Source of the DNA: an uncultured Pseudomonadota bacterium
Lineage (GTDB): Bacteria; Pseudomonadota; Zetaproteobacteria; Mariprofundales; Mariprofundaceae
Direction: 5' to 3'
Assembly (NCBI GenBank): GCA_913055645.1
Contig: CAJXLC010000005.1
Span: 1-64,000 of the forward strand
DNA: 64,000 nucleotides
A program made the translations under genes and the position numbers. Each line of letters starts with the position of its first letter. Within the stretch, counting starts at the first letter, position 1. Positions 2,150 through 63,853 of the stretch are shown here, one piece after another. The notes beneath the pieces were generated by a model that worked only from the letters and a program-made list of their open reading frames with translations, searched no databases and was not told where the DNA came from.

Positions 2150-2824
2150 TTACGTTTTTTCTTCTTTTTCTGCTAATTCCTTTTCCATTTGTCGTTTACG
2201 CCCATGCTCTTCAACAAAGAAGGTTAAATTTGCAATCATCAATGAATAAACAGCAATACCAAAAACCATGGTAAATACAGCCACAATGCGCCCACCATCT
2301 GTCACGGGTACAATATCACCATAACCCACTGTTGTGAGCGTGACAAATGCCCACCACAGACCATCAGAAATCTTACCAAACTGCGGATTTGCGCTATGTT
2401 CTAAAAGAAAAACAGTCATTCCAAAAATAAAAACGACACCAAAAATCATCGCCATTGCAGCTGGAAGACTTTCCTGTGAAAGAATAACAATATTCAGTAT
2501 CTTCTTACGATGGGCTTGCAAGAATGCCCCCAGACGTAAGGCTGGTAAAATTCGCACCACCCTCAGGGCTGTAAATAAACGCAACAATGGCGATGCCAGC
2601 AATACAATTAATGCCAAATCCAGCCAGTTTGCTTTCAAATAAGCCTGCCGATCCATAGAAATAAACCAACGCCATACAAAAAATGCAAAGAAACAGCTTA
2701 GCGCCAGAGGGTCTGCCCACTCAGGCGCTTCTTCCCATAGAGCAACACCTACCGCAACAAGCGTTGTGACAAAAAGCAAGCCATCCAACACTCGCCCAAG
2801 CCTGATATGATGCGGCGCTGGCAT
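2150..2824 (-). CDS. Voltage-gated-type potassium channel (6 TM)
   Basis: A 224-aa membrane protein. Four hydrophobic segments (S1-S4) come first; S4 at about residues 81-103 carries spaced arginines (LRLFTALRVVRIL). A pore module follows, with the K+ signature TTVGYGD at residues 164-170 between S5 and S6, then a short charged cytosolic tail rich in K and E. It should form a tetrameric K+-selective channel in the inner membrane. The start lies 2 bases after the stop of the yqhA-like gene, so the two are co-transcribed. Whether it is truly voltage-gated cannot be told from sequence. Confidence 0.85.
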   Translation of the reverse strand: MPAPHHIRLGRVLDGLLFVTTLVAVGVALWEEAPEWADPLALSCFFAFFVWRWFISMDRQAYLKANWLDLALIVLLASPLLRLFTALRVVRILPALRLGAFLQAHRKKILNIVILSQESLPAAMAMIFGVVFIFGMTVFLLEHSANPQFGKISDGLWWAFVTLTTVGYGDIVPVTDGGRIVAVFTMVFGIAVYSLMIANLTFFVEEHGRKRQMEKELAEKEEKT

Positions 2825-2826
2825 AC

Positions 2827-3339
2827 TTAGTGGCTCTCACCTGCTTTATGTCCAAAATAAAGTGCCAATGAAACAAGAAAAATACCAGCGCCCATATACA
2901 AAATATTCAAAGGATCATCAAAAGTTACATGTAAAACATTTTTGAAAAATGCCACAATAAGAATCATTAAAATCACTTTGCCCAAGCGGTCTTTTAAATC
3001 ATCCAAGCTATTAATCATTAAGATATTATTGGCATGTTGATCACCATGTGCCGCTTCAATTTTAGAGATAAATAACTCATAAAGTCCCAAACCAAAAATA
3101 AGTAATACAGTTGCCAATAAAAAATCATCTACCGCTGTAATCACATGACTCACCACAGTAACATGAAAATCTGGTTTATCTAAGCCAAGAAACATCACTT
3201 GAACAAATTCCACCGCCAAATGCCCCATATCCACGGCTGACGATACAAATAACAACAGCATACCAATAATCGATGACCAAACCGCAAGTAAAACGATATA
3301 ACGTGAATTCCATAATAAATTCTCAAAAAAACCTTTCAT
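2827..3339 (-). CDS. yqhA: YqhA/UPF0114 family membrane protein
   Basis: A 170-aa protein with four predicted membrane segments and the UPF0114 pattern: N-terminal SRYIVLLAVWSSIIGMLLLF, a middle FGLGLYELFISKIE and a DDLKDRLGKVILMILIVAFFK segment. The family's function is not established. The SD GGGAG precedes the ATG. It lies immediately upstream of the K+ channel with a 2-base gap, a pairing that suggests membrane ion handling. The start has no competing upstream ATG. Confidence 0.8.
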   Translation of the reverse strand: MKGFFENLLWNSRYIVLLAVWSSIIGMLLLFVSSAVDMGHLAVEFVQVMFLGLDKPDFHVTVVSHVITAVDDFLLATVLLIFGLGLYELFISKIEAAHGDQHANNILMINSLDDLKDRLGKVILMILIVAFFKNVLHVTFDDPLNILYMGAGIFLVSLALYFGHKAGESH

Positions 3340-7932: not shown

Positions 7933-8580
7933 TTAAGGAAAGCAATCCAGTAATTCCTCAAAACTATACAACACCTTATCAGCACCTTCATCATACAAAA
8001 GTTGTGTGTTTTCAGAGCCAAAGGCTACCCCCAAGGCACGTACCCCTGCAGCTTTTGCCATTTGCATGTCAAAATGCGAGTCTCCAACTAAGGTTGTATT
8101 ATCAGTCTCAACACCCAGCTCTTCCATGCATTCGAGTGCCATCGCAGGGTGCGGCTTGGAATTACAGCAATCTGCTGTTCGCCAAGTATAAAAGTACGAT
8201 GCTAAATCAAAACGTGACAACACACGCTCCAAACCATCTTTGGATTTCCCTGTCACCACTGCCATCCAATAACCACGTTGCTTTAATATACTTAAAACAT
8301 CTAACACCTTTGGATACAAGCGAATATCTTTTTCAAAAGACCCGTAATGCTCGCGGTAATCCTGTGCAATCGTAGCTACAAGTTTTGTTGAGTGATGATC
8401 TTGTTTGTGTAACAGCCCCTCAACTACACCATCCAAAGACATACCCAAAGCTGCTAATACATCCGTACTATTCGGTGCTGTTAATGCACTATCTTCAAAT
8501 GCCTGTTGAATAGATCGTACAATAACCATATTTGAATCCGTTAGCGTACCGTCACAATCAAATAAAATAAGTTGACTCAT
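7933..8580 (-). CDS. HAD-superfamily phosphatase, Gph/PpaX type
   Basis: 215 aa with the HAD motifs: DCDGTLTDS (nucleophile Asp near residue 8), VTGKS, SKPHPAM and VGDSHFDMQMA. The cap is the helical type of phosphoglycolate phosphatases, but the substrate is not certain. The start ATG at 8580 overlaps the DUF4340 stop as ATGA; the frame is open further upstream but the overlap fits the operon. It is the last gene of the ABC/Gld-like operon, an unexpected metabolic passenger there. Confidence 0.82.
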   Translation of the reverse strand: MSQLILFDCDGTLTDSNMVIVRSIQQAFEDSALTAPNSTDVLAALGMSLDGVVEGLLHKQDHHSTKLVATIAQDYREHYGSFEKDIRLYPKVLDVLSILKQRGYWMAVVTGKSKDGLERVLSRFDLASYFYTWRTADCCNSKPHPAMALECMEELGVETDNTTLVGDSHFDMQMAKAAGVRALGVAFGSENTQLLYDEGADKVLYSFEELLDCFP

Positions 8581-9098
8581 TGCTCTACCTTTTTCACAGC
8601 TTTCCAAGCTTTTTCACTGCGTTTTACCTGCCAAACCAAAGCTTTATTCACTGCCACAACCGCATCACCACCAGCTCTTCGAACATAGGTAGAAAGCAAG
8701 TCACTACCCTGTTTACCAACTGTCATATCCAATAACACAACACCTTGAGCATCCATACATTGCACACGTACACCACGATGAAGCAACCCTAAATCAGCAT
8801 CATAATCATGTTTGCGTGTCACCACCCGAATCACCTGCATGTCCGCCAAATCATCAAGCAAACGTAAAACAGCATCTTGCACAGCCAAATCACCATGACC
8901 CAATCGCCATTTTCCATCTTTTAAACTTAAAATAATATCGTTATAACTCTGTTTCTGAATCGTTATGTTCACAACCTCTTTCACTGCAATCGGTGACCAC
9001 ACATCCATGCGCTGCGATTGCGATGTTGGCTGCTGCCAAAGCCACAATACCGCCCATAACAACACCAAAATAGATACTGCCCACGCTACTTTTTTCAT
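8577..9098 (-). CDS. DUF4340 domain protein, membrane-anchored
   Basis: 173 aa: one N-terminal membrane segment (VAWAVSILVLLWAVLWLW), then a periplasmic beta-rich domain with the DUF4340-like pattern (WRLGHGDLAVQDAVLRLLDDLADMQVIRVV, then LLDMTVGKQG). It begins directly after the GldG-like stop and overlaps the next gene by 4 bases. DUF4340 proteins are commonly encoded behind Gld-type ABC permeases and are presumed to be part of that complex. No catalytic motif is visible. Confidence 0.75.
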   Translation of the reverse strand: MKKVAWAVSILVLLWAVLWLWQQPTSQSQRMDVWSPIAVKEVVNITIQKQSYNDIILSLKDGKWRLGHGDLAVQDAVLRLLDDLADMQVIRVVTRKHDYDADLGLLHRGVRVQCMDAQGVVLLDMTVGKQGSDLLSTYVRRAGGDAVVAVNKALVWQVKRSEKAWKAVKKVEQ

Positions 9099-10655
9099 TT
9101 ATTTAGAACGTTCCAAGGGATGATTTAAACGCCACCAACGCCATAGTCCAAACAGCAACATAAACAAAGGCAACCCAAACAACCACAGTGTTTTAAATAC
9201 CAACTTCCCACTTTGGCTTAATGCCGCCAATGGACGCTCGGTTACACCCCGCGAACGCAGCCCAATCAAAGCCTCATCATGACTCAACCAATCCAAACTA
9301 TTCAAAGTCAAGATCAATGCTGAACCATCCATAAATTCATCATCGAGCAAGCCTGGAGAACCGAACACCAATAAACGTCCGTCCTTCACATGTGTTAGTA
9401 AATCTCCCTTTTCACCTTGCGGTATTTTTTTAAATGCTGATGTCATATCACCTTCAAATGCCAATACGAGCACTTGAGATTTTAGCTGTAAACCTTTAAA
9501 GCGTTTATCCAATGCCATTAACGGATACACATCAAAAGGAGGTCCATCTTGCACCGCTGCCGACGATGATGATTGTAAAAGCACCTGAGCTTTATCATTA
9601 ACTGCCAATAATGGCGAAACAAACGGTATCGAAACCGACTCCAAGCCTCGACTAATCACATGCGACTTATTCAAATCTAAGACATTGGGCACAAAGGGGT
9701 AATCCACTTGTGATTGAAACACGCCATTACGAACGACCACTCGCTGTGCTCGCTTATCCATCACCAAACCAGGTTCCACAGATACCTTTAAATCTTCACG
9801 CACCCAATCATTGCTAGAAGGCTCAACAGCTTGCACATCAAAGCCTTTCGATAACGCGGGTCTAGCATTGCCTGCCAAAACCCAAACACCACCACCATGC
9901 ATGCGAAATTGATCCAAATGAAAACGCCAAAGCTCTGATGGTGATGATGTCATACCATCGACAATCACAGCTCGCACATCATCAGAAATAGCTGCCTTGG
10001 TCAAATCCAGCGATACAAACTCATAATCATCTTTCATCCATGCAGAAAAGCGACGCAGTTCATCTAATCTATGCGCACCAAAACTCGATGTTAAGCCAAT
10101 CTTCACGCGACCTTTACCCGTCAACTTCTTAATTTTTTTAGTGAGCAGGTATTCAAAACCCTCTTCACTTTGCACCACAGAAATTACCTCTTTACGATCC
10201 AAATATTCCAATACAATCGCCAAATAGCCTTGTTTAACCTGCGCCCTATCATTTTCTACTAGCTGCACTTGCACCTTAGGAATATTTAGGGCCTTAAGCG
10301 AAGCCAATACATTGGCATCCGAGGCAGGATCCATCACATCGAAGCCCACCTTACCATGCCCTGCCTCATCATAAGACTGCAGCATATCCTCAATAAAGCG
10401 TTGCAAACGCCCATAAGGTTGCGGCATATCCGATGTGATATAAGCACGAATCATCAAAGGTTCATCCAGCGCATCAAGCACCTGCTTGGTTGAATCAGAC
10501 AAGCTGTAAATTTGATCTTCTGTCCAATCACTGCGTATATGTGAAAGGTTTGCCAAAGTAAAAAGCAGCCCTCCCAACAACAATACAAGCACCACGCGCA
10601 TCCATGCTGAACGACGCATGACTTTACGTTGATCTATCAATGCATGCTTACTCAT
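9099..10655 (-). CDS. GldG-like ABC transporter auxiliary protein
   Basis: 518 aa: an N-terminal membrane helix (VVLVLLLGGLLFTLANL), a large periplasmic GldG/IFT52-like region starting SDWTEDQIYSLSDSTKQVLDALDEP, and a C-terminal helix (TLWLFGLPLFMLLFGLWRWW) ending in basic residues. This is the architecture of the 'ABC-type transport system involved in gliding motility, auxiliary component' family, which is widespread in non-gliding proteobacteria. It directly abuts the permease stop. It is probably a periplasmic partner of the permease; the substrate is unknown. Confidence 0.8.
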   Translation of the reverse strand: MSKHALIDQRKVMRRSAWMRVVLVLLLGGLLFTLANLSHIRSDWTEDQIYSLSDSTKQVLDALDEPLMIRAYITSDMPQPYGRLQRFIEDMLQSYDEAGHGKVGFDVMDPASDANVLASLKALNIPKVQVQLVENDRAQVKQGYLAIVLEYLDRKEVISVVQSEEGFEYLLTKKIKKLTGKGRVKIGLTSSFGAHRLDELRRFSAWMKDDYEFVSLDLTKAAISDDVRAVIVDGMTSSPSELWRFHLDQFRMHGGGVWVLAGNARPALSKGFDVQAVEPSSNDWVREDLKVSVEPGLVMDKRAQRVVVRNGVFQSQVDYPFVPNVLDLNKSHVISRGLESVSIPFVSPLLAVNDKAQVLLQSSSSAAVQDGPPFDVYPLMALDKRFKGLQLKSQVLVLAFEGDMTSAFKKIPQGEKGDLLTHVKDGRLLVFGSPGLLDDEFMDGSALILTLNSLDWLSHDEALIGLRSRGVTERPLAALSQSGKLVFKTLWLFGLPLFMLLFGLWRWWRLNHPLERSK

Positions 10656-11378
10656 TTAGCGCCACCTTCGACGTTCAAGCTCAAACCATGTTAGACTTAA
10701 AAACAAACCACTCATTGCGATAAAAAACATCACATCAGATAAACGTATCAAACCACGCAACATCGACTGATAATGCGCTAACGGGCTTAACAAGACCAAC
10801 CAGTCTTGCACTGCTGGAGAAAAAGTCGGCATCGCCTTTGAAAGTAAAAACACCAACAGCAACATCACAAAACCAAGCACATAAGCCACCACTTCGTAAC
10901 GGGTGATTGCCGAAGCATACAAACATACTGCGGCATATGATGATGCCAATAACACTGCTGCAAAATAAGATGCCAACACTTGCCCGACATCTAAATTCCC
11001 CAGCCATGAAAGTGTTAAAGGGTATAATAAAGTCAACGCGAGCAATACCACAACCTGCACCCATAGTGCTAAATATTTCCCCCATACAATGCTCATGGTT
11101 GTAATCGGCATAGTTGCCAATAGTTCAAATGTACCACTGCGTTTTTCATCTGCCAGCATACGCATTGCCATGGCTGGAATAAAAAACATCAACAACAAGG
11201 ATAAAATAGAAAACCAGCCGCGCATATCGGCTTGTCCAATCAGAAATAAATTACTTTCAAAGAAAAAACCACATACGATTAAAAATGCAATTGCCATCAC
11301 ATAACCCAGTGGGGTATCCATCACAACGCGCCACTCTTTGCGGCACAAACTTATGATTTGAAACCATGCGCTACTCAT
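10656..11378 (-). CDS. ABC-2 type permease, GldF-like
   Basis: 240 aa with six predicted membrane helices. It starts with the ABC-2 family pattern CRKEWRVVMDTPLGYVM and holds the conserved MRMLADEKRSGTFELLATMPITTMSIVWGKYLA stretch (positions about 70-102). Start ATG 11378 overlaps the ATPase stop as ATGA. With the ATPase upstream and the GldG-like and DUF4340 genes downstream it forms a complete export-type ABC module. Confidence 0.85.
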   Translation of the reverse strand: MSSAWFQIISLCRKEWRVVMDTPLGYVMAIAFLIVCGFFFESNLFLIGQADMRGWFSILSLLLMFFIPAMAMRMLADEKRSGTFELLATMPITTMSIVWGKYLALWVQVVVLLALTLLYPLTLSWLGNLDVGQVLASYFAAVLLASSYAAVCLYASAITRYEVVAYVLGFVMLLLVFLLSKAMPTFSPAVQDWLVLLSPLAHYQSMLRGLIRLSDVMFFIAMSGLFLSLTWFELERRRWR

Positions 11379-12313
11379 AAAGCTCGCCCTGTTAAACGAT
11401 GAAAGACATCTTCCAATGAGGTTTCTTGTGCATGCATCTCAAGCAACACCCCACCCACTGCAACAACCGCTGAAAAAACCGACTCAGCCAAAGCAATGCT
11501 GTCATCCGAATGCCGAAATATAAGTTTTGTAACCTCACTTTCTTCAACAGTATGCATATCGACTTCACAACCCTCATATTGCTTGCATATCGCTGCCACC
11601 ACAGCATCAGCATCACCGCGCATACATACATCCAACCGTAAACCTGAAGATGAACGTGCAATCAACTCATCCCGTGTTCCAAGCGCTCGTAATTCACCAC
11701 CGTCTATAATCATCATACGATCACATACCGCATCCACTTCCGATAATACATGTGAAGACAACAATACAGTTTTTTTCTCGCCCAAATGACGAATGAGTTG
11801 ACGAATTTCAACCATTTGATTGGGATCAAGCCCCGTTGTTGGCTCATCTAAGATAAGGCAGTCAGGATTGTGCAACATACTTGCCGCCAGCCCTACCCGC
11901 TGACGATAGCCCTTGGATAATTCATCAATACGCTGATTCAATCGTCCTTCTAAACCACATGCTACACTCATTTCACGAATTTTATCGTTTAGTGTTGCTT
12001 CTGGAATGCCATACATACGTCCCATAAATGATAAGTGCCCATGCACATTTAAATCACTATAAGAAGGTGCATGTTCTGGCAAATAACCAACTTGGCGCCG
12101 CACCTCCAAATCTTGCTGAATATCAATGCCATCCATGCTTGCCGTACCCGAAGATGGCGGCAAAAAGCAGGTTAACATTTTCATAGTTGTGGATTTCCCT
12201 GCCCCGTTAGGACCTAAAAGCCCCATCACCTCACCACGTCGAACATGAAAACTTAAATCACGAACAGCATATTTCTCACCATATAGGCGGCTTAATTTGT
12301 CGGCTTGAATCAT
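11375..12313 (-). CDS. ABC transporter ATP-binding protein, GldA-like
   Basis: 312 aa. Walker A GPNGAGKST (residues about 34-42), signature LSKGYRQRVGLA, Walker B LILDEPTTGLDP and the switch histidine in LLSSHVLSEVD are all intact, so it should be an active ATPase. The C-terminal 80 residues are the regulatory extension usual in drug/GldA-type ATPases. It is the first gene of a tightly packed operon of five. Confidence 0.88.
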   Translation of the reverse strand: MIQADKLSRLYGEKYAVRDLSFHVRRGEVMGLLGPNGAGKSTTMKMLTCFLPPSSGTASMDGIDIQQDLEVRRQVGYLPEHAPSYSDLNVHGHLSFMGRMYGIPEATLNDKIREMSVACGLEGRLNQRIDELSKGYRQRVGLAASMLHNPDCLILDEPTTGLDPNQMVEIRQLIRHLGEKKTVLLSSHVLSEVDAVCDRMMIIDGGELRALGTRDELIARSSSGLRLDVCMRGDADAVVAAICKQYEGCEVDMHTVEESEVTKLIFRHSDDSIALAESVFSAVVAVGGVLLEMHAQETSLEDVFHRLTGRAL

Positions 12314-12350: not shown

Positions 12351-14099
12351 CTAACGACTTTGATTTAATTCTAAATCCAGTTGTACCCCATGTTCATAAA
12401 AATTTCTCAACCATTCACTTATTTCAGCAACTGGCTTGGGTCTACTAATAAAATAACCTTGAATAAAATCGCATCCCATAGCAGCAAGGCTCTCCCAATC
12501 TTCACGGTTTTCCACACCTTCTGCCACCACCCGCAATCCTAAATTATGCGCCATGTTGACAACGGTCTGCACAATCACCAAATCATTTTTATACTCATTC
12601 ATACCCATGACAAAAGAGCGGTCTATTTTCAACTCATCCAGTTGCAAATGCTTTAAATAAGCAAGTGATGAATAACCTGTGCCAAAATCATCTATCGATA
12701 CATCAATATTCATATCATTAATTTCAGCCAATGTTTTTGAAGCTTGATGGGGATCATCCATCAATGTGTTTTCAGTAATTTCTAACGCAAATACATGATC
12801 GGGAACTTGGTATTTGCGTTTAAACTCCGCCACACGCTCCACCACATGTTCTTCTTGTAAAAAATTGGCCGATATATTTATCGATACACACACAGGCAAG
12901 CCATCTTGATGCCATACTGCACATTGTTTCATGGCGGTTTCCAGCACCCACCATGTCATTGGAATAATCAACTCTGAATCTTCAGCCAAAGGAATAAACT
13001 GATCAGGAAAAACCATGCCTTTTTGTGGGTGATTCCAGCGAATCAAGGCTTCTACAGATAACCGGTGACTGCCATCCATCTGCACTTGTGGTTGATAATA
13101 AAGCTCCATACCATCCGATTTAATCGCATGGTTCAATTCTTTAAGCAATGACATACGCTCAATGCTATTTTGATCTTGCATGACATCATAAACGGCAGTT
13201 TTTAAGTTTCTCTTCTTAGCATAATACATCGCCACATCTGCCCGACGCATCAATGTATCTAAATTATCACCATGGGTTGGAAACTCAGCAATGCCAATAC
13301 TCGCTTCCACTGAGAGTATTCTACCCTCACATTCAAATGGCTGACTTAGCACCTGTTGTAATTTTAACGCTACTTTTTCTGCGTCACTGGCATCATTATT
13401 AAACAAAAGAATCGCAAATTCATCACCGCCAAGTCGAGCCAAAACATCCGATGCGCGCAATGAGCCAAGCAAACGTTCGGCAACCTCTCTAAGTACCAAA
13501 TCTCCAGCTTTATGACCAAGGGTATCATTGATATGTTTAAAATCATTCACATCCATAATAAGCAAACTAGAGCACTTCTTCTGACGTGCTGACAATTTAA
13601 ACACCTGCTCTGATCGAGATAACAAAAGCCTTTTATTGGGAAGCCCTGTCAGGGCATCATGCATAAACTGGTGCTCCATACTGCGTCGTTGACGCTCCAA
13701 CTCCAATGACAACTGACCAAGCTGTTGCTTCGACTCATTGCGTTGTTGTAAAACATGCCCCTGCCTACCATGCAACAATTTTAATAAGTTTGCTGCCGAC
13801 ATATCTGCAAGATCTTGCTGTTGCATAACAACATCGACCTCTACTGTTTTAAAAAAGTCGGTTTTCTCCTGCCAACAATCCCCTTCAATAAGTAATTGAT
13901 ATGCTTCTGATGGCTTATGAATACTACAACACATGTGCACAACATCAGTAGTTGAACAATGTGCGGCAACGGTTTCTGCAAATACTTCAGCAAGTCTCTC
14001 ATCCATACCAAGTGCCTGCACTAAGCCCAATATTTTATAATAAGCAATAATATTTGCAGGCTGTGGTATATCAAAGTCAACCTTTGTAAGATTATCCAT
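12351..14099 (-). CDS. GGDEF-EAL cyclic-di-GMP signalling protein
   Basis: About 582 aa, cytosolic. The N-terminal 125 residues form a helical region with no domain I recognise, containing a cysteine/histidine cluster (DVVHMCCSIHKPS), then a coiled coil (LGQLSLELERQRRS). GGDEF follows (RLGGDEFAILL) with an intact inhibitory I-site RxxD five residues before it, then EAL (VEALIRWNHP, EITENTLMDD, DDFGTGYSS, KIDRSFVMG), with all key metal-binding motifs present. Both synthesis and hydrolysis of c-di-GMP are therefore possible. I prefer ATG 14099 because AAGG lies 5 bases ahead; a TTG at 14114 is also in frame. Confidence 0.85.
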   Translation of the reverse strand: MDNLTKVDFDIPQPANIIAYYKILGLVQALGMDERLAEVFAETVAAHCSTTDVVHMCCSIHKPSEAYQLLIEGDCWQEKTDFFKTVEVDVVMQQQDLADMSAANLLKLLHGRQGHVLQQRNESKQQLGQLSLELERQRRSMEHQFMHDALTGLPNKRLLLSRSEQVFKLSARQKKCSSLLIMDVNDFKHINDTLGHKAGDLVLREVAERLLGSLRASDVLARLGGDEFAILLFNNDASDAEKVALKLQQVLSQPFECEGRILSVEASIGIAEFPTHGDNLDTLMRRADVAMYYAKKRNLKTAVYDVMQDQNSIERMSLLKELNHAIKSDGMELYYQPQVQMDGSHRLSVEALIRWNHPQKGMVFPDQFIPLAEDSELIIPMTWWVLETAMKQCAVWHQDGLPVCVSINISANFLQEEHVVERVAEFKRKYQVPDHVFALEITENTLMDDPHQASKTLAEINDMNIDVSIDDFGTGYSSLAYLKHLQLDELKIDRSFVMGMNEYKNDLVIVQTVVNMAHNLGLRVVAEGVENREDWESLAAMGCDFIQGYFISRPKPVAEISEWLRNFYEHGVQLDLELNQSR

Positions 14100-14159
14100 A
14101 CTCACCTTGCCCAATCATTGAAATAAAAACAAATGACACTTTCAAAATATTCTTAAACC

Positions 14160-17030
14160 TTAAGAAGTCTCATGTGATTCACATGTACTACCTTCCCCAA
14201 TTACAATGAGTTCAGCAATATTTTCACGGTATTCACTCCATGAATGGCGAGAAACTGGATTGCCAAAGGGGTTGATAACAATCTGAAATTGACGAAGACA
14301 GCCAAAATCTTCCTCACGAGGAAAGAACTTGCGAATAACATCCTGTAACGGATCACTCCAAACAAAACTTTCCTTTAATCGATAACCAATCCAAACATAA
14401 CCTTGAGCAAGCAGTTGTGCAGACAAAGCTTCCGCATCGTCATCCAATGGTTTATCAACCTGTAAAACCTGCAACTCCATTTCATCACCCTCACCAACAT
14501 CGCCCATCAAATCGTCAATAGTATGCCGCAAAGTGCGTTGTAATTCATAGGACTCAGGGCTCTCTGAAGCATACATATGAAAGCTGGTATGCGCGACATA
14601 GGTTGCATAAAATTCATCAGGAACAAGCACATGAATTTCCAAAGGAAACTTAAAACGATACAGTTCCTCCTGCAATAGACGTGCCTGCTCACGATTTTCA
14701 AGTATAGGGAAAACATCAGGCTTTGTACCTGCCGCATTGATTAGCGTCACCATATGGGATAATACCGTAGATATGCTTGCATACGCATGCGCGCGCAGGT
14801 GAGCAGAGCGCGACAAAAGAATCCGATTGGCATCAGCAATATAATCGCGCAAAAAATTCATATCAGTGAAATTCCAAGGCACCATAGTGATCTTAATGCG
14901 TTCATTCGCACCTTCTCTAACAGCACAACGCCTACGTAAATAAGCCACTTGTTCCGCGCAATCTTCCTCAGAAAGATCATCAAGTATTGTAACCTCAATG
15001 TACTCAAATTCATCCAGCAACCGCTGCAACAGCAAAGGTAAACTACCAACCCAACCAGTAATCAGAAGTTTTAATTTTCTGCTATGCTCTACCACGCGCA
15101 ACCCAGTCGGTAATTCTTCACAGATCGGTTTCGACAGTTCATGCAAATGCTTAATTGTGTAGAAAGTTTCAGCATGCAATGCATTGGAATTAATCGAAAT
15201 CCCCAGTAGCGAAGGAATACGCAATGGCAACGACATCTCGGCTGCCTTGTATAGTGGTCGAACTTTTCCATCATCACCAACCAACGCAACCAGCGTTACG
15301 CCCCGCATCATCAGACGTGCAGCAAGTACCGTGAGCGACATTGATTTGGAATCATCGGGCAACGACAACATGATTTCGCCATTTTCCAACTTCAACAAAC
15401 CGCCCCATTCGCAAATTTGCAGTGATGATTCTTCCGTGCGTTCTGGAATCGTCAAACGTTCCATGACCTGGTCAAAATCGCGATAAACTAGGATATTACG
15501 GAACATATTGGCACGCACATCAGCACGCGACTGCACAACCGTCGGTTTATCATAAAAGCTCTTTATATCCCAACCAATTTGCAGCATATGGTGATGACAA
15601 TCCAGATGTGGATGAGCCATGCCAGGGGTCGTAAAGTTAAGATAAATATTAGGACTAACCGTACGAATAGCAATCAACGAAAAAGTAGCCTGAGCCAAGT
15701 TATCCGCACCTGAATATCCATCAGGAATATTAACAATCGCTTGCCTAGCATGGGCGATATTCACCCGCTCTAAGGAACTAATTTGTTCCATATCTCCCCA
15801 ACGGTAAGATACCCATGAATGTTCAATGAGCTCAGGAGGAATCTTGTCATCATTATTTAGAATGACTAATTTTAATTTGGAAAAGCTACGCTCAGAAATA
15901 GTTTTCAACTGTGTAAGAATAAAAGGAGCCACCTCAGACCAACCCAGCATCACCATATGATTGGTAATATTCAAACGTTCATTACGCAACTTGAGCATCA
16001 GCCCTGATACAATACTGGCACCAATACCAATAAAAAATGCAAAGATAAATACACCGATAACAACGGCAATCACTGAAATAATGGTAATTTCATTACCATC
16101 TGGATAGGAAATGGAATTCCCTGGATCGGTAAATAAACGGAAGGCAAACCAAATGGGGGCCAACATGCCTTTATCGTTGGCATCACTTTGACCATTCTGA
16201 GTATAATCAAACTCTGGCATGGTATAATGCCCGATAACACCAGCACCAATCGACAACACTGCCAAAAGCAGAACAATCAGGTTGATTTCTTGCATAAACT
16301 GCCCTTCTCGCATGACACCCTTTAGATTACGAATAATCACCATCCAAGGGCGAAGCAAACGAATCAAACGCAGCATACGCAGAGCGCCGCCATACGGAAT
16401 AAATGCAAAAGCTGGGATCATCACGATTGTGGCAACCGTATCAACCCACCAAAAAGCCCACTCGGAGACCCTATCCTTTTTCGTTTCAAACCTAGTATTG
16501 CGTATGATGATAAAACGAATCGCCAGTTCAACACTGAAGAAAATAATAATAACCCACATCAGCGTGTCTTGGGCGAAGAATGACAACAAGATAATCAATG
16601 AAATCATCATGCCATAAGTCGGTGAATACATAGCACTCTGCAAGTCAATATAACGGAACATCCGAAGTGTGCGCAGCAAATATACTGCACGCAAAAGACG
16701 CACGGCTGCAATATCCTCCACCGGAATAGCGATATTCAATACTGTGATTAATAGTGAAAGTACACCAACGATGTCTAGCACAAGAAATAACGTATCCAAT
16801 TTATGATTCATCGAGGAGCGGTAAGGATTGGTTCGTCGCTTATAAAGCATAATCAAAAAACGTAGAATCAACTCCATGGAGAAGACCAAAAATAGGGCTC
16901 CTGCTAAAAGCTGATTATGCATGAATGATAAAGCAATCAACCCCATCATTAAGAACCCAAAGCGAGGGTGCATCAACACCCATTCCATATGATGGTAAAA
17001 AAGTGGTCTATCATTGAATACGGATTTCAT
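14160..17030 (-). CDS. CASTOR/POLLUX-type ion channel with two voltage-sensor-like modules
   Basis: 956 aa. Two S1-S4-like blocks come in tandem (about residues 24-128 and 139-240). They share FSMELILRFLI / FSVELAIRFII, a following hydrophobic segment with Asp (FLVLDIVGVLSLL / FWWVDTVATIVMI) and an Arg-rich helix (VRLLRAVYLLRTLRMFR / LRMLRLIRLLRPWMVIIR). A single S5-pore-S6 follows (about 248-345); its FRLFTDPGNS filter resembles the AD(S/A/P)GN filter of plant CASTOR/POLLUX channels, not TVGYG. Two RCK-like cytosolic halves begin near residues 355 (NHMVMLGWSEVAPFIL) and 653 (KLLITGWVGSLPLLL). Probably Ca2+-modulated and cation-permeable. The start ATG 17030 has no good SD. Confidence 0.8.
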   Translation of the reverse strand: MKSVFNDRPLFYHHMEWVLMHPRFGFLMMGLIALSFMHNQLLAGALFLVFSMELILRFLIMLYKRRTNPYRSSMNHKLDTLFLVLDIVGVLSLLITVLNIAIPVEDIAAVRLLRAVYLLRTLRMFRYIDLQSAMYSPTYGMMISLIILLSFFAQDTLMWVIIIFFSVELAIRFIIIRNTRFETKKDRVSEWAFWWVDTVATIVMIPAFAFIPYGGALRMLRLIRLLRPWMVIIRNLKGVMREGQFMQEINLIVLLLAVLSIGAGVIGHYTMPEFDYTQNGQSDANDKGMLAPIWFAFRLFTDPGNSISYPDGNEITIISVIAVVIGVFIFAFFIGIGASIVSGLMLKLRNERLNITNHMVMLGWSEVAPFILTQLKTISERSFSKLKLVILNNDDKIPPELIEHSWVSYRWGDMEQISSLERVNIAHARQAIVNIPDGYSGADNLAQATFSLIAIRTVSPNIYLNFTTPGMAHPHLDCHHHMLQIGWDIKSFYDKPTVVQSRADVRANMFRNILVYRDFDQVMERLTIPERTEESSLQICEWGGLLKLENGEIMLSLPDDSKSMSLTVLAARLMMRGVTLVALVGDDGKVRPLYKAAEMSLPLRIPSLLGISINSNALHAETFYTIKHLHELSKPICEELPTGLRVVEHSRKLKLLITGWVGSLPLLLQRLLDEFEYIEVTILDDLSEEDCAEQVAYLRRRCAVREGANERIKITMVPWNFTDMNFLRDYIADANRILLSRSAHLRAHAYASISTVLSHMVTLINAAGTKPDVFPILENREQARLLQEELYRFKFPLEIHVLVPDEFYATYVAHTSFHMYASESPESYELQRTLRHTIDDLMGDVGEGDEMELQVLQVDKPLDDDAEALSAQLLAQGYVWIGYRLKESFVWSDPLQDVIRKFFPREEDFGCLRQFQIVINPFGNPVSRHSWSEYRENIAELIVIGEGSTCESHETS

Positions 17031-62927: not shown

Positions 62928-63031
62928 AAAAATGCATACAAATATTCTACAACTTGCAACTCACAGCCTCAACCGCAATATGTGGCGCGATAAAAACACC
63001 TCACAAAACCGTTGATGGAGTAATCACAACC

Positions 63032-63853
63032 ATGCAAAAGTTAGCCCAAAACATCATCCAACATGTTCGTTTTGAACAATTTATTATCGCAGTCATCCTA
63101 ATAAGTGCTGTACTTATCGGATTGGAAACATCTCCAGAAATCATGCTGTCATATGGTGATTGGATTCACCTTGGCAACCAACTGGTACTTGCCGTTTTTA
63201 TCATCGAAGCAGCACTTAAAATATATGCCGTCGCACCCAAACTCAGTGGGTATTTTGGTAAGGGCTGGAATATCTTTGATTTCTCCATCATTTTACTCGC
63301 TCTGTTACCAAGTACGGGTGAATTTGCCATGATTGCACGCTTGGCTCGTCTACTTCGTGTACTTCGCCTTATTTCAGCGATTCCTGAATTACGTTTGATT
63401 GTCTCCACACTCATGCGCTCTATTCCTAGTATGGCAAATGTTATGTTATTGATGAGTGTTATCTTTTATATTTACGCCGTGGCAGGGCAGCAGTTATTCC
63501 ATGAACATGACCCAGAGCATTGGCATAATATAGGTATTTCATTGCTTACATTATTTCGCATTGTCACCTTGGAAGATTGGACAGATGTCATGTACACAGC
63601 TATGGAAATGAATCCATACAGTTGGATTTATTTTGTCTCATTTGTCATTCTTGGCACGTTTGTGATTATCAATTTATTCATTGCTGTGGTGATTAATAAT
63701 CTCGATGAAGCCAAACAAGAACGCCTCGCCGAAATGCGTACGCCACCCAGTCGAGATGATTTACTCAAAGAACTAGCTCAAACACAAAAGGCGTTATTAT
63801 CACTGAGTCAGCAGCTTGCGAATAAAGATATGGATACACTTATAAATAAATAA
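63032..63853 (+). CDS. NaChBac-type voltage-gated cation channel
   Basis: 273 aa, the usual size for bacterial Nav channels. S1-S4 includes an S4 with arginines at residues 103, 106, 109 and 112 (ARLARLLRVLR). The pore has the filter TLEDWTD (179-185), S6 is VIINLFIAVVINNL, and a coiled coil (LLKELAQTQKALLSLSQQL) ends the protein. The second Asp and the last Asp make the filter more acidic than the common TLESWSM, so Ca2+ permeation is likely (inference). ATG 63032 has GGAG 11 bases upstream; the open frame before it is not conserved-looking. Confidence 0.88.
   Translation: MQKLAQNIIQHVRFEQFIIAVILISAVLIGLETSPEIMLSYGDWIHLGNQLVLAVFIIEAALKIYAVAPKLSGYFGKGWNIFDFSIILLALLPSTGEFAMIARLARLLRVLRLISAIPELRLIVSTLMRSIPSMANVMLLMSVIFYIYAVAGQQLFHEHDPEHWHNIGISLLTLFRIVTLEDWTDVMYTAMEMNPYSWIYFVSFVILGTFVIINLFIAVVINNLDEAKQERLAEMRTPPSRDDLLKELAQTQKALLSLSQQLANKDMDTLINK

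Follow-up and report, generated by a model that had tools for sequence, protein, structure and literature searches.

Mariprofundales (Zetaproteobacteria) encode channel subunits for which all the evidence from sequences and models indicates two complete voltage-sensor domains (VSDs) instead of one. The gene described here lies in the window, by which we mean the entire 64,000-nucleotide stretch of DNA that was analyzed. On balance, we read its product as a tetrameric voltage- and ligand-gated cation channel, possibly for Ca2+, that feeds motility control. The best clues to its function are the flagellar and chemotaxis operon context and an EF-hand-like loop in the turret, both of which were absent from the initial annotation of this DNA. 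The host is an iron-oxidizing marine bacterium, and the channel may be an electrical input to its motility.

The features of the gene and its downstream neighbor are as follows:

14160..17030 (-): family A tandem-VSD channel gene, 956 aa (ORF call; 29 homologs; AlphaFold2 pLDDT 83, pTM 0.81)
16650..16967 (-): VSD1, residues 22-127 (four model helices; invariant residues; KCNQ2 profile match)
16305..16622 (-): VSD2, residues 137-242, with S4-S5 linker (four model helices; invariant residues; weak Cav match)
16221..16298 (-): S5, residues 245-270 (model helix)
16173..16208 (-): EF-hand/dockerin-like turret loop, residues 275-286, DYTQNGQSDAND (pattern counts, 42 sequences)
16113..16163 (-): pore helix and filter FTDPGNS, residues 290-306 (model helix 290-301; conserved D302 and G304)
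15984..16094 (-): S6, residues 313-349 (model helix)
15111..15965 (-): first RCK half, about residues 356-640 (Foldseek match to the LjCASTOR gating ring; weak MthK and TrkA_N sequence matches)
14196..15083 (-): second RCK half, about residues 650-945 (covered by the same LjCASTOR Foldseek match)
12351..14114 (-): GGDEF-EAL (c-di-GMP) gene directly downstream of the channel, 45-bp gap (Pfam GGDEF 1.4e-44, EAL 6.3e-73)

A tandem-sensor layout shared by two channel families

The gene is real and conserved, since 29 full-length homologs (family A), which were aligned, share 44-83% identity. The same genome encodes a second, longer protein (G000:C9, L057, a 1,235-aa open frame), which matches residues 16-433 of the 956-aa protein, both sensor blocks included. 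This protein is a member of a paralogous, longer family (family P). Overall identity between the two families is only 17-20%. The initial annotation had proposed a search for homologs that share the doubled module; these were found in both families, which together are present in 47 of 66 Mariprofundales genomes. No match at E 1e-8 was obtained in any of 332 sampled Pseudomonadota genomes outside Mariprofundales. A search of genome contigs for close relatives, which is also the extent of our coverage beyond Pseudomonadota, gave 14 matches, all to Mariprofundus or Zetaproteobacteria, and the window accordingly belongs to a Mariprofundaceae genome.

Because the layout recurs in both families and across these 47 genomes, it is no accident. 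A gene fusion, a frameshift, or an assembly error in the window's genome would have the unusual layout as its sole point in favor. The homologs rule this out, as the identical layout is seen in isolates and metagenome-assembled genomes alike, and we consider the chance of such an artifact to be negligible.

Both sensor blocks have the hallmarks of a VSD. An AlphaFold2 monomer model of the 956-aa protein, built from a 42-row alignment (pLDDT 83, pTM 0.81), contains ten transmembrane helices, eight of which precede S5-pore-S6. These eight helices form two bundles, at residues 22-34, 40-67, 74-97, and 107-127 in the first block and at residues 137-152, 156-178, 184-203, and 214-242 in the second. 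The two S1-S4-like blocks placed by the initial annotation at about residues 24-128 and 139-240 agree in position with these helices, and structure prediction, which it had named as a check, returned each of them as a four-helix bundle. Both bundles recur in the family P model, which is less confident (pLDDT 73).

Each block carries the S2 aromatic and acidic residues, the S3 acid, and the S4 arginine ladder expected of a VSD. In VSD1, these are F50-x-x-E53-x3-R57, D86, and R111/R114/(Y117)/R120/R123/R126; in VSD2, they are F165-x-x-E168-x3-R172, D197, and R218/R221/R224/R227, to which a conserved S4-S5 linker to the pore is added. The matching motifs first pointed out in the initial annotation (FSMELILRFLI and FSVELAIRFII, an Asp in the next helix, here D86 and D197, and Arg-rich fourth helices) are thus all present. 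Across 42 sequences from both families, F50, R57, D86, R111, R114, R120, and R123 of VSD1 and E168, R172, D197, R218, and R221 of VSD2 are invariant, and E53, Y117, and R126 of VSD1 are kept in at least 90%. R224 and R227 are invariant within family A only. Family P has other residues at these last two arginine positions of VSD2-S4, mostly a hydrophobic one and Asn, and keeps only two S4 arginines there. Invariant residues of family A are concentrated in VSD2-S5-S6 rather than in VSD1. Against the PDB, the VSD1 profile matches the VSD of KCNQ2 (E 0.0043) and the VSD2 profile weakly matches a Cav VSD (E 0.079). In one homolog (L031), Pfam Ion_trans extends across residues 160-343 (3.2e-7).

The two VSDs are homologous to each other. 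Their profiles align with an hhalign probability of 97% (E 1.5e-11), compared with about 0% for VSDs against pore or RCK segments, so the internal homology that had been proposed is far above background. Against the VSD1 profile, 29 of 29 VSD2 sequences outscore every segment of a small control set of four-helix membrane segments (maximum 12.9, n=14), and the 956-aa protein's own VSD2 scores 56.7. Kv and BacNav VSDs score below VSD2 against this profile (median 26, maximum 38). Since VSD2 is closer to VSD1 than ordinary Kv/BacNav VSDs are, the internal sensor duplication put forward in the initial annotation is favored over fusion as the probable origin, although it is not proven. In an unresolved tree of 139 columns, however, VSD1 and VSD2 were not joined as sisters. 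Instead, the VSD1 sequences of families A and P group together, as do their VSD2 sequences (support 80/81 and 98/98), and a recent duplication into sister VSD modules was rejected. From this grouping of each VSD across both families, it follows that the doubling is older than the split between them.

Pore, turret loop, and gating ring

The S5-pore-S6 unit that follows the two blocks, noted previously for its FTDPGNS motif, has its filter at residues 300-306. Within the TDPGN core, G304 is invariant and D302 occurs in at least 90% of sequences in both families. All filters of the two families are of the TDPGN, DPGA, or AAGN type. One family A lineage has MAAGNL in place of TDPGN, and thus the filter Asp is not universal. 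A K+ channel filter (TVGYG type) was not found in any family A or P sequence, nor was the BacNav combination of a T-x-E-[SD]-W filter with one VSD. On our reading, the pore is not a K+ pore. Most likely, it passes Ca2+ or is unselective among cations, and we put Ca2+ permeability itself at even chances. One contig (G036:C127) carries two family A channels in tandem (L018 and L031), one of which has MAAGN replacing TDPGN and has lost the filter Asp; perhaps its selectivity is changed.

The turret loop, located between S5 and the pore helix, is extracellular by topology. Its sequence suggests a putative Ca2+ binder. The first position is Asp in 42 of 42 sequences and the twelfth is Asp or Glu in 41 of 42. 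An EF-hand pattern, D-x-[DNST]-x-[DN]-G-x-[ILV]-x3-[DE], is matched in its loose form by 40 and in its strict form by 22 of the 42 loops, compared with a background of 9 and 0 matches, respectively, in the 41,091 residues that make up the rest of these proteins. The window protein fits the loose form only (Ser at position 8), and the loop of its paralog reads DINDDGNITPAD. Among family A members, only L017 has lost the EF-hand-like turret loop; its aligned positions 275-286 read DYTMGLYDKPVT.

The two RCK-like halves recognized in the initial annotation were borne out by fold. With the isolated ring as query, the best Foldseek match was the LjCASTOR gating ring, spanning both halves (TM 0.71 by target, E 1.1e-15), followed by DMI1 (0.68) and SLO3 (about 0.6). 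Sequence profiles of the ring match those of MthK, BK, and CASTOR rings weakly (E 0.01-0.03).

The protein would work much as a CASTOR-like channel does, yet its membership of the CASTOR/POLLUX family is not supported. It shares with CASTOR/POLLUX/DMI1, which are plant nuclear Ca2+ channels, a D-x-G-N filter without TVGYG and a tandem-RCK ring. Thus, the “CASTOR/POLLUX-type” label of the initial annotation is apt for the filter motif and the ring, but family membership was rejected by Pfam: with E values up to 10 allowed, neither the protein nor its homologs nor the genome matched Castor_Poll_mid (PF06241). Furthermore, the annotation had credited CASTOR with one set of helices before the pore, when CASTOR is predicted to have four transmembrane helices, two of them before the pore (PMC6697748). 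The 956-aa protein has ten, with two full VSDs; the turret EF-like loop and the motility operons are likewise particular to the tandem-VSD channels. In CASTOR, whose filter reads ADSGNHA, there is no current without the filter Asp, and Ca2+ is selected with PCa/PNa of about 30 (PMC6697748). Compared with the pattern AD[SA]GNHA, D-x-G-N is common to both and HA is not.

Other channels share parts of this architecture. Each Slo/BK subunit likewise combines a VSD and a pore with two RCK domains, and the Foldseek match to Slo1 reaches an E as low as 9e-16. Slo channels have S0 in addition to their single VSD, and their filter is of the K+ type, unlike the two VSDs and non-K+ filter of the tandem-VSD channel. 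The VSDs of Kv/KCNQ, BacNav, and Cav channels (Pfam Ion_trans) have the same S2 F-x-x-E-x3-R, S3 Asp, and S4 Arg at every third residue, but there is one VSD per pore unit. Two-pore channels (TPCs) and four-domain Nav/Cav channels do have more than one VSD in a single chain; in these, each VSD leads into a pore of its own, whereas no pore lies between VSD1 and VSD2. BacNav channels have one VSD and lack an RCK ring, and NaVBP of Bacillus pseudofirmus, itself a BacNav, differs from the tandem-VSD channel in both respects. It nevertheless offers a precedent, as a voltage-gated channel of a bacterium that takes part in both motility and chemotaxis (Ito et al. 2004, as cited in PMC4225499). In the open-access literature, of which our coverage was incomplete, we found no description of a channel with two serial VSDs before one pore; tandem VSDs led only to Hv1, TPC, and unrelated subjects. 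The wording “ion channel” is absent from the main text of the PV-1 genome and Zetaproteobacteria pan-genome papers.

Channel genes in motility operons

Family A genes are found inside the flagellar operon, on the same strand, in Mariprofundus and relatives from three families. The order is fliF, fliG, fliH, fliI, fliJ, a FlbB/MotE-like gene, the channel, fliK, flgD, and flgE (checked with NCBIfam, which confirmed most neighbors, some of them weakly, and did not confirm fliJ). In 19 genomes, the channel shares its strand with fliG and lies 3.1-4.3 kb downstream of it. Channel presence also tracks fliG, being recorded in 42 of 45 fliG-positive and 5 of 21 fliG-negative genomes (Fisher p 1.7e-8, with kinship ignored). 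The three fliG-positive genomes that have a fliF-fliI-motE-like cluster and lack the channel are G016, G018, and G074 (L138-L140). Their FliG proteins, at 39-42% identity to PV-1, have also diverged further.

Within the genus to which the window belongs, the family A gene is no longer in the flagellar operon. The GGDEF-EAL gene directly downstream is a possible operon partner in the window's species. The pair is retained only in a close relative (L045), and its linkage was accordingly dropped as a general clue. Adjoining the GGDEF-EAL gene, at 8577-12313 (-), genes for the ATPase and permease of an ABC transporter precede those for a GldG-like protein and a small protein of secreted type; this cluster resembles Gld-type ABC systems.

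Family P genes are part of a chemotaxis operon, MCP-channel-cheY-cheA-cheW-cheB, in five of five loci with full flanks. These include the window's genome (G000:C9, L066 5713-9318, minus strand) and L082-L085. Where flanks are partial, an MCP gene is directly upstream in most. The C-terminal ~112 aa of family P (e.g., L057) form a conserved helical hairpin with an invariant D-R-V-x-Q (model confidence ~65), which occurs three times in one genome (L064) and is absent from family A. Its D-x3-Q spacing recalls the catalytic D-x3-Q of CheZ, and a search of 29 Mariprofundales genomes gave no Pfam CheZ match. We hypothesize that the hairpin could act on CheY as CheZ does. Homology of the tail to CheZ is not significant (hhalign 4%; no Pfam or PDB match), and the resemblance remains a lead.

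Proposed mechanism and alternatives

Since family A lies in a flagellar operon and family P in a chemotaxis operon, the channel is a possible electrical input to swimming behavior. We consider it very likely that the protein conducts ions and likely that it is gated by voltage; that it acts on motility or chemotaxis is probable, and for movement of both sensors the balance tips slightly in favor. Each subunit would comprise VSD1, VSD2, one pore unit, and ten transmembrane helices, and a tetramer is assumed from the channel superfamily. With two sensors per subunit, eight voltage sensors would then surround a single pore. Most likely, VSD2 would gate the pore in the usual way via its conserved S4-S5 linker, VSD1 would serve as a second, peripheral sensor that modulates the pore, and the cytoplasmic CASTOR/Slo-like RCK gating ring would add a ligand input. 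External Ca2+ might act at the turret loop beside the pore mouth. Membrane potential and cytoplasmic ligand would in this way yield an ion signal, and ion entry would inform the flagellar motor (family A) or the CheA/CheY pathway (family P). In some bacteria, both chemotaxis and flagellar direction are altered by internal Ca2+ (PMC7041947).

VSD2 might instead be the sole working sensor, with VSD1 a static peripheral scaffold for neighboring subunits, lipid, or a flagellar/stator-type partner. This is consistent with a whole VSD separating VSD1 from the pore, and with the crowding of family A invariant residues in VSD2-S5-S6. A scaffold, however, has no need of a charge-transfer centre, yet the VSD1 set from F50 to R123 is invariant in both families, and it is VSD2, not VSD1, that loses S4 arginines in family P. 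We therefore regard a static VSD1 as unlikely, though worth serious consideration. If both sensors do move, the channel lends itself to asking how a pore can be influenced by a sensor that is not joined to it.

Two further alternatives keep the architecture and alter its purpose. The channel could serve ion homeostasis (Na+, K+, or unselective), with RCK ligands as its main gating input and an indirect link to motility, such as the upkeep of ion gradients for the motor. The ligands of RCK rings are usually ions or nucleotides, which would suit such a role, as would the proposal that Nav channels in Bacillus supply Na+ to the motor (PMC4225499). Against this are the retention of two sensor sets and a Ca2+-type turret loop, and a paralog located among cheA/cheW/cheY genes, which points to signaling rather than supply; we find homeostasis rather improbable. 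Less probable still is a voltage receptor with little or no ion flow, in which the VSDs move a ring that acts on motor or Che proteins, as in voltage-sensing phosphatases, and the family P hairpin could act on CheY. The conserved D-x3-Q tail, the lack of a CheZ family match in the genomes searched, and the adjoining cheY and cheA genes of family P all fit such a receptor. Conversely, conservation is high in S5-P-S6 and the filter motif, the tail does not significantly match CheZ, and family A has no tail.

Our preferred reading remains that of a conducting, voltage- and ligand-gated channel. Its boldest form is rather improbable: the two serial sensors would be an electrical coincidence detector built into the flagellar and chemotaxis operons of Zetaproteobacteria, and the motility system would read membrane potential directly. 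In family A, it would do so through Ca2+ that enters at the motor, and in family P, through a channel to which a hairpin acting on CheY is fused. The operon context makes testable the long-standing question of whether bacteria control swimming by voltage-gated ion signals. On Fe(II)/O2 gradients, the cells of Zetaproteobacteria either swim or build stalks and switch from one to the other; for them, membrane potential would report directly on the supply of energy.

Other channel genes in the window

A BacNav-like channel with a single VSD and the filter TLEDWT is encoded at 62954-63853 (+). The gene at 2150-2824 (-) encodes a short K+ channel (TVGYGD) whose match to Ion_trans is partial, and it adjoins a gene for a UPF0114 membrane protein at 2827-3339 (-). 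With the BacNav-like gene added to the others, the window holds three different VSD-type channel genes.
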